A DNA stretch of 19,934 bases from Candidatus Nomurabacteria bacterium RIFCSPLOWO2_02_FULL_42_17 (GTDB lineage: Bacteria > Patescibacteriota > Minisyncoccia > Phycocordibacterales > MFVN01), in NCBI GenBank assembly GCA_001786095.1, contig MFVN01000034.1, positions 1 through 19,934 on the forward strand, given 5' to 3'. The notes under the pieces were generated by a model. It searched no databases and was not told where the DNA came from. It saw only the letters and a list, made by a program, of their open reading frames with translations. Of this stretch, positions 1,609 to 15,860 are shown in pieces (the stretch's first letter is position 1; the number at the start of each line of letters is the position of its first letter). Both the position numbers and the translations under genes were made by a program.

Positions 1609-2349
1609 GTGAGAAAAGAGCCTTTTGGTGAAAATTCAATAATCCATGTTTTTAACAGAGGTAATCGTAAGCAGAAAATTGTAAACGATGAAGGCGATCG
1701 CTGGCATTTTTTGCAGATGCTTTTTTATTTCAACGATAAATTTGCTCCAACCAATACATTTCGTACCCTCAAGGAGCTGTTGAGATTAGATCTCAACAGT
1801 CGGTTAATTTGGCCGGATGAGTGGTCAACAAGAGAAAATTTAGTAAAGATAATCGCTTTTTGTCTTCGGGATAATCACTTCCACCTCATTCTTCAAGAAA
1901 TAAAAGAGGGCGGAGTTACAAAGTTTATGCAAAAATTAGGCGTTGGAATGACGAATTATTTCAATACAAAACACAAGGAAACCGGACGGCTCTTTCAGGG
2001 TTCATACAAAGCTCGGCTTGTGGATACGGATAATTATCTAAAATATTTGAGCGTTTATATTCAGGTAAAAAACGTCTTAGAATCTTATCCGGGCGGTGTG
2101 GAAAACGCACTTTTAAATTTTAACGATGCGTATCAATTTGCCCTAGATTATAAATATGGAAGTCTTGGCGCGCAAATTTTTAAAAATTTGGAAACAAATA
2201 AAATTATCGATAATAAAATTCTAACGGATTTTTTTGAGAATGATGAGTATAAAAATTTTGCGAGGGATTGCTTGTCTCGCGTATCTTTTGATGAAAGCCA
2301 ATCTAAGCTCATTGTTGAAATCAAATCTCAACAGCTTGTTGAGATTTGA
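1609..2349 (+). CDS. REP-associated Y1 (HUH) transposase, RAYT 1
   Basis: 246 residues, GTG start chosen because it follows the -10 box by 6 nt and aligns with the N termini of the two other transposases here (basic start, then an H-x-F/Y-x-RG motif: IIHVFNRGN). The metal-binding HUH motif is H90-F-H92 in DNHFHLILQE. The segment that normally carries the nucleophilic tyrosine reads GVGMTNYFN: the expected Tyr is Met114, and the nearest tyrosine is Y117. The downstream GRLFQGSYKARL motif is intact. Such enzymes nick single-stranded DNA at REP hairpins (family knowledge). Codons 57-64 are made from an internal REP-1 palindrome and the last ~12 codons from the 3' REP pair. It may be inactive or a divergent subgroup. 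Confidence 0.85.
   Translation: MRKEPFGENSIIHVFNRGNRKQKIVNDEGDRWHFLQMLFYFNDKFAPTNTFRTLKELLRLDLNSRLIWPDEWSTRENLVKIIAFCLRDNHFHLILQEIKEGGVTKFMQKLGVGMTNYFNTKHKETGRLFQGSYKARLVDTDNYLKYLSVYIQVKNVLESYPGGVENALLNFNDAYQFALDYKYGSLGAQIFKNLETNKIIDNKILTDFFENDEYKNFARDCLSRVSFDESQSKLIVEIKSQQLVEI
1778..1798. repeat. REP-1 palindrome inside the RAYT 1 coding sequence
   Basis: A 21-nt perfect palindrome, arms TGTTGAGAT / ATCTCAACA around TAG. It is read in frame as residues 57-64 (about ELLRLDLN), between the N-terminal part and the HUH motif. The other two transposases have unrelated sequence at this point. Confidence 0.8.
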
Positions 2350-5142: not shown

Positions 5143-5832
5143 ATGTTAAGAAAAACATCTTTTACTAAAGGTGAAAACTATCATTGCTATACTCGAGGCA
5201 CAGACAAAAGAAAAATTTTTCTAGATAAGGGGGATTATATCCGTTTTATTGTTCTTTTGTATATCTGTAATAGCACACAGCCGATTCATATAAGTAACTT
5301 CGAGTCCAAAAAACTTATGGAGTTTTTTGATTTAGAAAAAGAACGGTCACTTGTGGCCATAGGGACTTATTGCTTAATGCCAAATCATATACACTTACTA
5401 CTTCAAGAAGTAGAAAAAGGTGGCCTCAGTTTGTTTATGAAAAAATTACTGACGGCTTACAGTATGTATTTTAATAAAAAGTACCAGCGAAAAGGGGTTT
5501 TATTTGAGGGTTGTTTTAAGGCCGAGCATATCAATGAAGACAGATATCTTAAATATCTTTTCTCATACATTCACCTAAATCCGGTAAAATTGATTGATTC
5601 AAAATGGAAAGAACGCGGATTGAAGAATTTAAAACAAGCCAAGGGTTTTTTGAGAAATTATGAATACTCAAGTTATTTGGACTACTTAGGTATTGAACGG
5701 CCGCAAAATAAAATTTTAAATCTATCCGCCTTTCCCAATTATTTTGAAAATATAAAAGATTTTTGGTCCGAAATTTTCGAATGGCTTTCTTTTGGAGAAG
5801 ATTTTTCACGGCAAGGACCGTCCTTGCCGTAG
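5143..5832 (+). CDS. REP-associated Y1 (HUH) transposase, RAYT 2
   Basis: 229 residues. The N terminus has the family pattern (ENYHCYTRGTDKRKIF). The HUH motif is H82-I-H84 in MPNHIHLLLQE, and the catalytic tyrosine is probably Y106 in LTAYSMYFNKKY. The following VLFEGCFKA and SYIHLNPVKLIDSKWKE motifs are shared with RAYT 3, so these two are close relatives while RAYT 1 is distant. All key residues are present, so it may be active. The stop codon TAG (5830-5832) uses the last base of a REP-2 palindrome, and the final ~7 residues are REP-encoded. REP-2 copies lie on both sides. Confidence 0.9.
   Translation: MLRKTSFTKGENYHCYTRGTDKRKIFLDKGDYIRFIVLLYICNSTQPIHISNFESKKLMEFFDLEKERSLVAIGTYCLMPNHIHLLLQEVEKGGLSLFMKKLLTAYSMYFNKKYQRKGVLFEGCFKAEHINEDRYLKYLFSYIHLNPVKLIDSKWKERGLKNLKQAKGFLRNYEYSSYLDYLGIERPQNKILNLSAFPNYFENIKDFWSEIFEWLSFGEDFSRQGPSLP
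5808..5830. repeat. REP-2 palindrome overlapping the RAYT 2 stop
   Basis: The same 23-nt palindrome as at 5092, in the last codons of the transposase; its final T is the first base of the TAG stop. The two copies enclose the gene. Confidence 0.85.
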
Positions 5833-9064: not shown

Positions 9065-9163
9065 CCCGCACATAACTTACCAAATAACTTTTAAAGTTAA
9101 ACATGTTTTATTTCGTAGAACATTTATTTAATAAAAAAGATTGTTTGTTGAGTTATGTGCGGG
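9065..9163 (+). other. AT-rich expansion of 23S helix 63
   Basis: A 13-bp perfect stem, CCCGCACATAACT (9065-9077) / AGTTATGTGCGGG (9151-9163), closes about 73 nt of very AT-rich sequence. In E. coli this stretch is shorter and unrelated. It lacks splice-site features and looks like an expansion or an excised intervening sequence (IVS). Confidence 0.6.
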
Positions 9164-9372: not shown

Positions 9373-10086
9373 AGGAAACTGCCCATCCCGATGGCGACAT
9401 TGGGATTAAATCCGGCTTATAACGGTGGAATCCTTTTGCACATAATGCGCAAAGTAAAAGGACAATACCGTGGGAAGTCCCAGTTTGATTTATCAAATTT
9501 GGACCCCGTAACGACTTAAGTCGCCTATGTATAGTGGCGACTTGGATAGATTATTGATATAATCTATAACATGCCGGCTCTCAAGAAAAAACGCAATATA
9601 CATGAATATATTTCCGGATATGTAGATGGAGAAGGGTGCTTTAGTGTTTCATTTTCAAAACGAGATAAATTTATCGTCGGCTGGGAAACTAAACCAAGTT
9701 TTTCAGTTAGCCAAAATGAAGATAGAGCACAAACACTTTTCCTAATACAAAAGATATTGAAATGCGGATTTATGCGAAGAGATTTTTCAGATAAAACTTT
9801 GAAATACGAAGTTAGAAGTCTGGAAGATCTAATCAAAAAAGTAATTCCTCATTTTGAAAAGTTTCCAATGGTTTCAAATAAGCAAAAAGATTTCAAATTA
9901 TTCAAGCAAGTTTGTTTCTTGATGCAAAGAAATATGCACAGGAAAAAAAACGGATTGAATAAAATAATGAGTCTTGCGTTTAAAATGAATCCAGGGGGAA
10001 AAAGAAAATATACGAAAGCAGAAATGCAAAAAGCGTTGAGATGAAGATATAGTCTGATACTCCTTGTAAAAGGAGATAACACAGTG
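9373..10086 (+). mobile_element. Group I intron in 23S (L1951 position) with LAGLIDADG gene
   Basis: The exon reads ...TTGTCGGGT | AAGTTCCGAC... when joined, as in E. coli near position 1951 (alignment from memory). P1 is GGGT of the exon with GCCC (9381-9384), ending in the usual U.G at the splice site; AACT just before it can pair with AGTT of the 3' exon (P10). The R-like element (CGTAACGACTT, 9507-9517) and S-like element (AAGATATAGTC, 10044-10054) give P7. P9 is CTCCTT-GTAA-AAGGAG (10060-10075), a GNRA hairpin. The intron ends in G (10086). The endonuclease ORF sits between R and S, in the P8 region. 714 nt. Confidence 0.85.
9571..10044 (+). CDS. LAGLIDADG homing endonuclease (single-motif type)
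   Basis: 157 residues with one LAGLIDADG motif, ISGYVDGEGCF (about 14-24), whose acidic residue D19 is the expected metal ligand; one motif means a homodimer, like I-CreI. The second half has the family's usual FPMVSNKQKDFKLF, a helix with H123, and LAFKMNPGGKRKY. It should cut intron-less 23S genes at the insertion site so the intron is copied in. TATAAT (9558-9563) lies 7 nt before the ATG, but it is also one arm of a palindrome (TAGATTAT / ATAATCTA, 9547-9566), so it may be RNA structure. The frame ends right at the intron's S element. Confidence 0.93.
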   Translation: MPALKKKRNIHEYISGYVDGEGCFSVSFSKRDKFIVGWETKPSFSVSQNEDRAQTLFLIQKILKCGFMRRDFSDKTLKYEVRSLEDLIKKVIPHFEKFPMVSNKQKDFKLFKQVCFLMQRNMHRKKNGLNKIMSLAFKMNPGGKRKYTKAEMQKALR

Positions 10087-10730: not shown

Positions 10731-11215
10731 TCAGGAGGCAAAAAATTGTCTTTTGAACAGTTTGAACCTAAGAGGCAAAGAACTGTTATAAAACTGAAAT
10801 TAACCAAGTGTATTAAATTACACACACGGCGGCTATATGCAGAAATGTATATAGACAAATCGACTTATATCGGAAAAATCCCAAGTGGACAATTCCGAGG
10901 GAAAAATGTTTTGTGAGTTTCATAGAGGAAAAATTGTTCTTTACTTCGTCCTTTCGTCTAGTGGTTAGGACGTGTCTATGCTTGAATAAAGCTAGATGAA
11001 ACACTGGTTCGATTCCAGTAGGGATGACGAAATTACTTTTTAGTAATTTATTAAATTTTTTTGGGGAAATTAATTTTTCCCCTCTTCTATGAAATTCATA
11101 AAATAACTGCCCGTAGAGACTAAACGTCGATATTCTTGAAAAAGAATGTGTTATAGTCCGATCCCTTCAGTAATGAAGGTTCAGCGTTTGTAGAACGCGG
11201 AAGTAAAACCAAATG
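10731..11215 (+). mobile_element. Group I intron in 23S (L2593 position), no endonuclease, tRNA-like insert
   Basis: Joined exons read ...TTCAAACCGT | CGTGAGACAGGTT..., the I-CreI-type site in the peptidyl-transferase region. Core: P3 ATCGAC (10859-10864) / GTCGAT (11126-11131); P4 CGGAA (10871-10875) / TTCCG (10893-10897); P6 GGG (10899-10901) / CCC (11110-11112); P7 GACT (11118-11121) / AGTC (11155-11158); P8 ATTCTT-GAAA-AAGAAT (11132-11147); P9 CCTTCA-GTAA-TGAAGG (11164-11179); P9-type GCGTT / AACGC (11184-11198); terminal G at 11215. The 208 nt inside P6 hold a tRNA-like cloverleaf and two hairpins (AATTAC / GTAATT and GGGGAAA / TTTCCCC). 485 nt. Confidence 0.85.
10947..11027 (+). tRNA. 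tRNA-Glu-like cloverleaf with abnormal anticodon arm, inside the 23S intron
   Basis: Acceptor: CGTCCTT (10947-10953) / AGGGATG (11020-11026), 7 bp with two G.U. D arm: GTCT-AGTGGTTA-GGAC (10956-10971), with the A14, GG and A21 pattern, almost as in tRNA-Glu. T arm: ACTGG-TTCGATT-CCAGT (11003-11019), perfect, with the TTCGA loop. Variable loop AAAC. The anticodon stem TGTCT / AGATG closes a 16-nt stretch instead of 7; this folds on as A-T, a bulged T, then GCTT / AAGC with loop GAATA, so no normal anticodon loop exists. No CCA is encoded. Probably derived from tRNA-Glu but unable to decode. Confidence 0.6.
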
Positions 11216-15105: not shown

Positions 15106-15122
15106 CACAAGTCCGACTTGTG
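15106..15122. repeat. REP-3 palindrome upstream of RAYT 3
   Basis: 17-nt palindrome CACAAGTC-C-GACTTGTG. It recurs inside RAYT 3 and just after it. Confidence 0.85.
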
Positions 15123-15126
15123 TTTC

Positions 15127-15155
15127 TTGTGTTTGAATTATACATTTTATATAAT
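15127..15155 (+). promoter_or_regulatory. Promoter of RAYT 3
   Basis: TTGTGT (15127-15132), 17-bp spacer, TATAAT (15150-15155), 6 nt before the ATG at 15162. The -35 lies 4 nt after the REP. Confidence 0.5.
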
Positions 15156-15161
15156 CTCATT

Positions 15162-15860
15162 ATGTCTAACAGAAAAATTCCCTTTATAGATGGTGAATAT
15201 TATCATATATACAGCAGGGGAAATAGTAAACAGAAAATTTTTTTAAGCAAAGAAGATTACGATTATTTTATCAAATGTCTTTATTGTCGTAATACATATA
15301 AAAGTTTCAGATTTAGAGATGATATTGTAAAGTGGGGCATCAATGCTTTTGATTTTGATCGAGGCGAGATAATAGTGTCTATTGGTGCCTGGGTGCTTAT
15401 GCCAAATCATTTTCATATTTATATTACTACTAATCACAAGTCGGACTTGTGGAAAGAAGAAAAAAAGAGCCGAATTTCTGAATTTATGAGAAAGGTTTTG
15501 ACTGCTTATGTTAAGTATTTCAATGCTAAATATAAAAGAACAGGCGGGCTTTTTGAAGGAAAATTCAAATCTACGCACATAAAAAAAGACAATCAAGCTA
15601 AATACCTTTTTTCTTATATTCATTTGAATCCAATTAAGCTTATTGATTCAAAATGGAAAGAACAGGGAATTAAAAATGTTAAAAAAGCGCTAGATTTTTT
15701 AAATAATTATAAATGGAGTAGTTACCACGATTATATTAATCCTGGCCATAGAAAAGAGTCAAAAATTCTGGATATAAAAAACTTTCCAAAGTATTTTGAC
15801 AAAATAAAAGATTTTAATAGGGAAATAATAAGCTGGTTAAGATATAAAGATCAAATCTAA
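15162..15860 (+). CDS. REP-associated Y1 (HUH) transposase, RAYT 3
   Basis: 232 residues from ATG 15162. The frame is open back to a GTG at 15120, but the ATG is preferred because it follows the -10 box by 6 nt and matches the N termini of the other two. N-terminal GEYYHIYSRGNSKQKIF, HUH motif H83-F-H85 (MPNHFHIYITT), catalytic tyrosine probably Y116 (LTAYVKYFNAKY), then GGLFEGKFKSTHI and SYIHLNPIKLIDSKWKE. It is the closest relative of RAYT 2 but has about nine extra residues after the HUH motif, part of which (92-97, HKSDLW) is encoded by its own REP-3. Key residues are intact. Confidence 0.9.
   Translation: MSNRKIPFIDGEYYHIYSRGNSKQKIFLSKEDYDYFIKCLYCRNTYKSFRFRDDIVKWGINAFDFDRGEIIVSIGAWVLMPNHFHIYITTNHKSDLWKEEKKSRISEFMRKVLTAYVKYFNAKYKRTGGLFEGKFKSTHIKKDNQAKYLFSYIHLNPIKLIDSKWKEQGIKNVKKALDFLNNYKWSSYHDYINPGHRKESKILDIKNFPKYFDKIKDFNREIISWLRYKDQI
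15435..15451. repeat. REP-3 palindrome inside RAYT 3
   Basis: CACAAGTC-G-GACTTGTG, identical arms to the flanking copies, read in frame between the HUH motif and the tyrosine helix. Confidence 0.85.

Follow-up and report, generated by a model that had tools for sequence, protein, structure and literature searches.

A predicted self-splicing group I intron in a 23S rRNA gene appears to carry, at the tip of its P6 extension, the body of a tRNA that cannot decode. We found this element in a stretch of 19,934 nucleotides (the window) and tRNA-like P6 tips in seven further introns at the same 23S site (29 to 62 bits), with one additional weak case. With modest confidence, we interpret the window element as a captured, non-decoding body of tRNA-Glu type, held at the P6 tip as a self-folding and probably L-shaped module. 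It is likely that the tRNA body is retained for its fold and not for decoding.

The 5' exon of the intron ends in AAACCGT at E. coli 23S base 2593, the 3' exon begins with CGTGAGAC, and the terminal base of the intron is G11215. The features of the intron are listed below; L166, an intron of a Nomurabacteria genome, is the closest relative of the window intron that we found.

10731–11215, plus strand: group I intron at 23S site 2593, 485 nt, with boundaries set by comparison with the 23S genes of relatives.
10859–10864, plus strand: 5' strand of P3, ATCGAC, with its partner GTCGAT at 11126–11131; read from the sequence.
10907–10928, plus strand: 5' strand of the P6 extension stem, pairing with about 11081–11105 in the predicted fold; nearly identical in L166.
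10936–10942, plus strand: GTTCTTT motif in the junction strand 5' of the tRNA-like element; from the sequence.
10947–11027, plus strand: tRNA-Glu-like element without a usable anticodon loop; from covariance models and sequence.
10973–10998, plus strand: anticodon arm of this element, a 10-pair hairpin with one bulge and the loop GAATA; read from the sequence.
11032–11047, plus strand: hairpin ATTACTTTTTAGTAAT in the predicted fold; identical in L166.
11063–11082, plus strand: hairpin GGGG...CCCC on the 3' side of the P6 tip in the predicted fold; several other tips have a hairpin at the same place.
11118–11122, plus strand: 5' strand of P7, GACTA, with its partner TAGTC at 11154–11158; read from the sequence.

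The P3/P7 core pairing and the terminal G are those of a group I intron, and relatives share the exon ends and the P7 motif, AGAGACT being common to the related introns in the P7 region. The Rfam model Intron_gpI (RF00028) matched at 23.3 bits, under its cut-off of 50; this model probably covers the subgroup to which these introns belong poorly. Endonuclease genes are known cargo of group I introns, and in the related intron L059 an ORF of LAGLIDADG type, recognized by eye from the sequence, lies in the P6 tip. The window intron has no LAGLIDADG gene, no sense-strand ORF of at least 80 aa overlapping 10731–11215. Site 2593 is a known rRNA insertion site in CPR bacteria, according to the available text of Tsurumaki et al. 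2024 (PMC11270868).

The same 23S gene contains a second intron-like insertion at window positions 9571–10044, with a LAGLIDADG_1 endonuclease gene (E 9.7e-25), and an AU-rich hairpin-like insertion at about 9068–9162, between CCCGCACATAACT... and ...AGTTATGTGCGGG, which by eye is not a group I intron. Three genes elsewhere in the window (1609–2349, 5143–5832 and 15120–15860) look similar by eye to one another and to transposases of the Y1 (IS200-like) type; Pfam agrees for the first two and returns no family for the third.

The initial annotation had described a tRNA-Glu-like cloverleaf lacking a usable anticodon loop at 10947–11027 and had called for a covariance search for tRNA. In that search, the Rfam tRNA model (RF00005) matched the element end to end on the plus strand with 39.7 bits (E 6.1e-7 in 561 nt), above its gathering score of 29 and not at background, which bears out the description. 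A covariance model of 24 tRNAs from the same genome scored the element (locus L031) at 48.0 bits (E 5.7e-12). ARAGORN made no tRNA call within the window, as expected for this element from a 10-pair anticodon arm ending in GAATA, and the element was absent from the output of an Rfam scan of the whole window run with fast filters.

All seven acceptor pairs are formed (10947–10953 with 11020–11026; two are G-U), the D stem pairs 10956–10959 with 10968–10971 around the D loop AGTGGTTA, and the T arm spans 11003–11019 with the loop TTCGATT. In total, 16 of 16 acceptor, D and T pairs hold, 13 of them Watson–Crick. The elbow signature is complete (T8, A14, G15, GG, A21, C48, TTC and A58), base 26 is G and the variable loop is AAAC. 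At the 3' end, A73 is followed by an encoded CGA, not CCA. The element has no seven-base anticodon loop with U33, and a functional tRNA-Glu gene in the window intron is ruled out by the missing anticodon loop.

The nearest counterparts of the element are ordinary tRNA-Glu genes from the same order, with a 22-base stretch 95% identical and a 31-base stretch 87% identical, which gives no support to the earlier suggestion of a ribosome-born tRNA fragment. The cloverleaf is not the predicted energy minimum: an alternative fold is 3.4 kcal/mol better, retaining the acceptor and T arm and pairing the 5' strand of the D arm with the 3' strand of the anticodon arm as one long arm. For the 24 genuine tRNAs of the same genome, the gap between cloverleaf and minimum ranges from 0 to 4.9 kcal/mol, so the energies neither prove nor exclude the cloverleaf.

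In the predicted fold, the P6 tip runs from the GTTCTTT stretch through the tRNA-like element to the two hairpins. The element sits between both strands of the long stem 5' of P7, in agreement with the P6 placement first proposed for it. We also considered a pairing of GTTCTTT with a fixed intron partner, AAAGAAC, and rejected it: by eye, a 7-base partner is present in the window and none in the few other introns inspected.

We searched 297 genomes of the order, of which 228 matched the intron or its exons, and took stretches from many of them. In all, 116 distinct introns were extracted, a set that also includes loci from later scans; 15 of the 116 have no automatic P6 call, and a listed length of 900 marks a fall-back cut where no intron length was measured. 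The own-genome tRNA model was run over 126 order-sample loci including that of the window, not every one of which has an intron, with L045, L053, L079 and L114 left out. tRNA-like tips were rare: the model gave three strong in-intron matches among the 126 loci, the window, L144 (50.0 bits) and L131 (48.4 bits), and one weak match, L054 (29.0 bits).

One scan of 84,980 genomes for a T arm with the P7 motif 39 to 99 bases 3' of it returned eight stretches, five from records of Paceibacterota, Adlerbacteria or Nomurabacteria and three from records labelled 'uncultured bacterium'. All eight lie in site-2593 introns as judged by the 5' exon; the 3' exon was found in seven, and the locus of L163 ends before it. 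Seven of the stretches score as tRNA, from 29.4 to 62.1 bits (best E 1.2e-16), and five of these were new: L166 (62.1 bits), L168 (55.7 bits), L163 (50.5 bits), L161 (37.4 bits) and L165 (29.4 bits). The eighth stretch, L164, and L137 are one and the same intron, which carries 23S helix 69 (see below). The strong set therefore comprises eight distinct introns (the window, L131, L144, L161, L163, L165, L166 and L168), and in all of them, as well as in L054, the match is internal to the intron, 5' of P7 and on the sense strand.

A looser order-wide pattern matched in 20 of 397 genomes; six of the places are, from their sequence, in these introns (the window, G021, G206, G272, G335 and G395) and the others look like chance. 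A class-wide pattern search of 383 genomes matched the window's own genome only, and a stricter scan of viral contigs gave a single stretch, a tRNA array and not an intron. Among 30 loci from the family of L166's host, an in-intron tRNA score was obtained for L166 itself and for none of the 29 others, which leaves no graded set of close relatives for comparison. tRNA matches outside introns (L042, two in L035, L048, L057, L037, L391, L389, L395 and L400) were not counted; the placement of the L389 match was judged from the locus data, as automatic calling of its 5' exon had failed. In L048 the tRNA (2014–2164, 45.8 bits) is 3' of the intron and of the 3' exon and has about 80 extra bases in its anticodon arm. 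The P6 tips of L405, L174 and L104 have an acceptor-like stem with GTTCTTT upstream, and those of L405 and L174 also have a T-arm-like hairpin; identified by eye, with no tRNA model score, these are possibly decayed tRNA-like elements and were likewise not counted.

On sequence evidence, then, several introns from different bacteria have a tRNA body in the predicted P6; the body is intact, and the capacity to decode has mostly disappeared. Of the 128 acceptor, D and T pairs in the eight strong elements, 126 are standard; L163 has one mismatch and L165 one deleted base. T8, A14, A21 and A58 are present in all eight and the D-loop GG in seven. The search pattern that yielded the five new elements already contained the T-loop letters, so that agreement in this loop is not independent for these five; it did not include the acceptor, D stem or D-loop letters. 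A seven-base anticodon loop with U33 is found in one of the eight elements, L166, and the anticodon arms are as follows.

Window: 10 pairs, loop GAATA.
L144: 6 pairs, loop CCGACA.
L131: 7 pairs and a three-base loop, together with an insert in the D loop.
L161: 67 bases where the model has 5.
L163: eight-base loop.
L165: extended arm.
L166: canonical TTGATAA loop, the only normal decoding loop of the set.
L168: extended arm with a GAAA tetraloop.

The nearest tRNA types vary as well, from Glu for the window to Gln-like, Ile/Val-like, Asn/Asp-like or unclear for the others, which rules out a common source tRNA for all elements. The initial annotation had proposed that a tRNA was captured and kept for its fold, and this part of its interpretation is supported. 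Similar inserts do keep intact acceptor, D and T stems beside a variable anticodon arm, but most site-2593 introns lack an insert, including those in the family of L166's host. Related introns without the fold had been named as evidence against the proposal; compensatory changes in the stems, named as evidence for it, are present in the closest relative.

These paired changes came from L166. The window intron and L166 are alike in their P6 strands, in the GTTCTTT stretch and in the 3' flank ACGAAATTACTTTTTAGTAAT; around the T arm they agree at 18 of 20 aligned positions. The tRNA body is Glu-like in the window and Ile- or Val-like in L166. Seven of the 16 stem pairs are the same, three are changed on one side and six on both sides, and all are paired in both introns; when as many changes were placed at random, none of 200,000 trials kept all pairs. 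The flanks are far more similar than the stems. Because the flanks are nearly identical, replacement of the tRNA by recombination in the same setting would be at least as likely as stepwise compensating changes, and some paired changes in the window element may predate capture. Both replacement and stepwise change need a reason for the renewed presence of a tRNA fold. Near the 5' end of the L166 intron (about 77–148 of the intron query) there is a CTAG-rich repeat, which also occurs elsewhere in the host genome and in genomes of its family, a small interspersed repeat inside the intron.

P6 tips also carry pieces of rRNA. In a comparison of 49 tips with rRNA and tRNA genes, the L137 tip matched 22 of 22 bases of 23S helix 69 (E. 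coli 1906–1927), and the tips of L385 and L086 matched 24 of 26 and 20 of 23 bases of the same region. The helix 69 hairpin also belongs to the I-CeuI-type homing site. The L034 tip holds a piece of 16S rRNA (23 of 27 bases shared with a CPR 16S gene, around E. coli 410–432). All of these pieces are on the plus (sense) strand; shuffled tips matched in 17 of 490 cases at the same threshold. A helix-69 motif search found four copies in 146 introns, each shortly 5' of P7, and a fifth, looser one among the 49 tips, in L040. Hairpins of the GGCCGTAACTATAACGGTCC type are seen in the P6 tips of L137, L385, L086, L403 and L040, in looser form in the last two. Minus-strand tRNA matches of the L032 and L087 tips were dismissed as chance, being equalled by shuffled tips, and the apparent 23S cargo of L124 was a mis-cut tip containing intron core. 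Other automatic tips mis-cut with core sequence include L070, L073, L075, L089 and L122, and such tips were counted as 'other' in the GTTCTTT comparison below.

We conclude that the P6 tip captures tRNA and rRNA pieces. Random DNA copies would be mostly protein-coding and would come from both strands; sense-only cargo therefore hints at an RNA step in capture or at selection for the sense fold. Our preferred reading is that pieces of mature translation RNAs would be captured at the P6 tip, perhaps through RNA, and would be retained because they fold fast and independently. The captured fold would cap the P6 arm and leave the ribozyme core and the surrounding 23S exons undisturbed. Less certainly, host enzymes that bind tRNA could also use the retained elbow and acceptor to grip the intron RNA. 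The rarity of tRNA-like tips and the existence of tips with unrelated structures count against the preferred reading.

The initial annotation had gone further and suggested a handle for RNase P, tRNA-modifying or CCA-adding enzymes, a synthetase or EF-Tu that would aid folding, release or turnover of the intron. On such a dedicated handle, one of these proteins (modification enzymes of TruB/TrmA type among them) would act, opening the excised intron, chaperoning it or protecting it. This is possible but doubtful. It would fit the retention of elbow and acceptor with loss of the anticodon loop, the anticodon being irrelevant to proteins that bind elbow or acceptor, and the presence in L166 of a different tRNA on the same P6 platform. 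It would also fit an encoded CCA after four of the eight elements, compared with 15 of 150 tRNA genes in six host genomes (Fisher P 0.008, post hoc; a recognizable T arm was required, the hosts of L161 and L165 were unsampled, and the genes read included the intron copy of L166). GTTCTTT points the same way, occurring in six of nine tRNA-bearing tips (L054 included) and in five of 41 others (P 0.002, post hoc); three of those five are decayed tRNA-like folds by eye, without model support. Across whole introns its enrichment is modest (12 introns, against a mean of 4.0 and a maximum of 9 in 200 shuffles). By contrast, half of the elements, that of the window included, have no CCA, and in the predicted fold the ends of L163 and L165 continue to pair outward past position 1/72. 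Moreover, the tRNA type differs between introns, and a few tips have helix 69 or 16S pieces in place of a tRNA, which is thus not always needed.

A more sweeping proposal, which we hold to be quite doubtful, joins both ideas. The P6 tip would be a socket for pieces of mature tRNA, helix 69 and 16S rRNA that arrive via RNA; it would swap its cargo, and non-decoding tRNA bodies would be kept as a means for the host's tRNA enzymes to act on the intron within the maturing ribosome, by folding, modifying or cutting it.

Alternatively, the element may be a neutral passenger, a recently inserted tRNA gene or transcript that is drifting and whose fold persists for lack of time. P6 tips tolerate inserts of many kinds and of very different length, 9 to 449 nt across the 101 introns for which an automatic call was obtained. 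The window copy still resembles tRNA-Glu over the 22- and 31-base stretches, and the 29 other loci of L166's family have no scoring intron. We nevertheless regard this explanation as unlikely, as the stem pairs are almost unbroken in eight elements despite thoroughly changed anticodon arms in most. Compared with the tRNA-Glu genes L311 and L312 of the order, the window element has three and five double changes, respectively (P 0.0002 and 0.00002); random change would be expected to break about 5 of 16 pairs relative to L311 and 8 to 9 relative to L166.

It is very improbable that the intron delivers a working tRNA, processed out of it and used. The canonical tRNA-Ile(GAU)-like element of L166, with its 62.1 bits, would suit such a role, and tRNA-Glu(UUC) was not seen in the window's own assembly, which is 87% complete. 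However, seven of the eight elements have no normal anticodon loop. The Glu pattern recovered a genuine tRNA-Glu(UUC) from only two of eight genomes and missed that of G397, so its silence in the window's genome means little. As for L166, its host has 44 tRNA matches that together serve all 20 amino acids, and these include a separate tRNA-Ile(GAU); the intron copy is therefore a spare that is not needed to decode, and a working intron-borne tRNA-Ile was rejected. Chance resemblance or misassembly, which the single genome and draft assembly of the window element might suggest, is refuted in practice by the same arrangement in independent assemblies of other bacteria and by tRNA scores down to the best E value given above.

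The site-2593 introns of this set carry tRNA bodies and rRNA helices instead of endonuclease genes, in bacteria with very small genomes. Were the fold used, a selfish RNA would here be borrowing the tRNA machinery of its host in a new way. Were it only tolerated, the introns would still record the capture of stable RNA into DNA, perhaps via an RNA step, given the sense strand of all better matches and a CCA that is commoner than in the hosts' ordinary tRNA genes. Either way, the set of introns makes the use of the fold a testable question.

The CPR rRNA insertions of Tsurumaki et al. 2024 (PMC11270868) share the site, the bacterial group and the intron class with the window intron, with or without LAGLIDADG; 'tRNA' occurs 0 times in the main text as available. 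In the accessible part of the open literature we found no earlier account of tRNA bodies in the P6 tips of group I introns. tmRNA and viral tRNA-like structures keep the acceptor and T arm, have a replaced anticodon arm and are located at RNA ends, and many of them can be charged. The window element likewise keeps acceptor and T arm with a replaced anticodon arm; unlike those structures, it is internal, within an intron. The group I intron of coral mitochondrial nad5 has working genes nested inside it. It too hosts other genes, but working ones, whereas the window element cannot decode; this intron measures about 11 kb in the available text of PMC7693180. CYT-18, a tyrosyl-tRNA synthetase, helps group I introns, according to the available text of a review of bacterial group I introns (PMC3984707), in which the term 'tRNA-like' is absent. 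Similar to the introns served by CYT-18, the window intron would meet a tRNA-binding protein via a tRNA-like shape. In the CYT-18 case, the group I intron core itself is viewed as a mimic of tRNA. Unlike those introns, in which the shared core is the mimic, the window intron has a separate tRNA-derived P6 domain with the sequence signatures of a tRNA.
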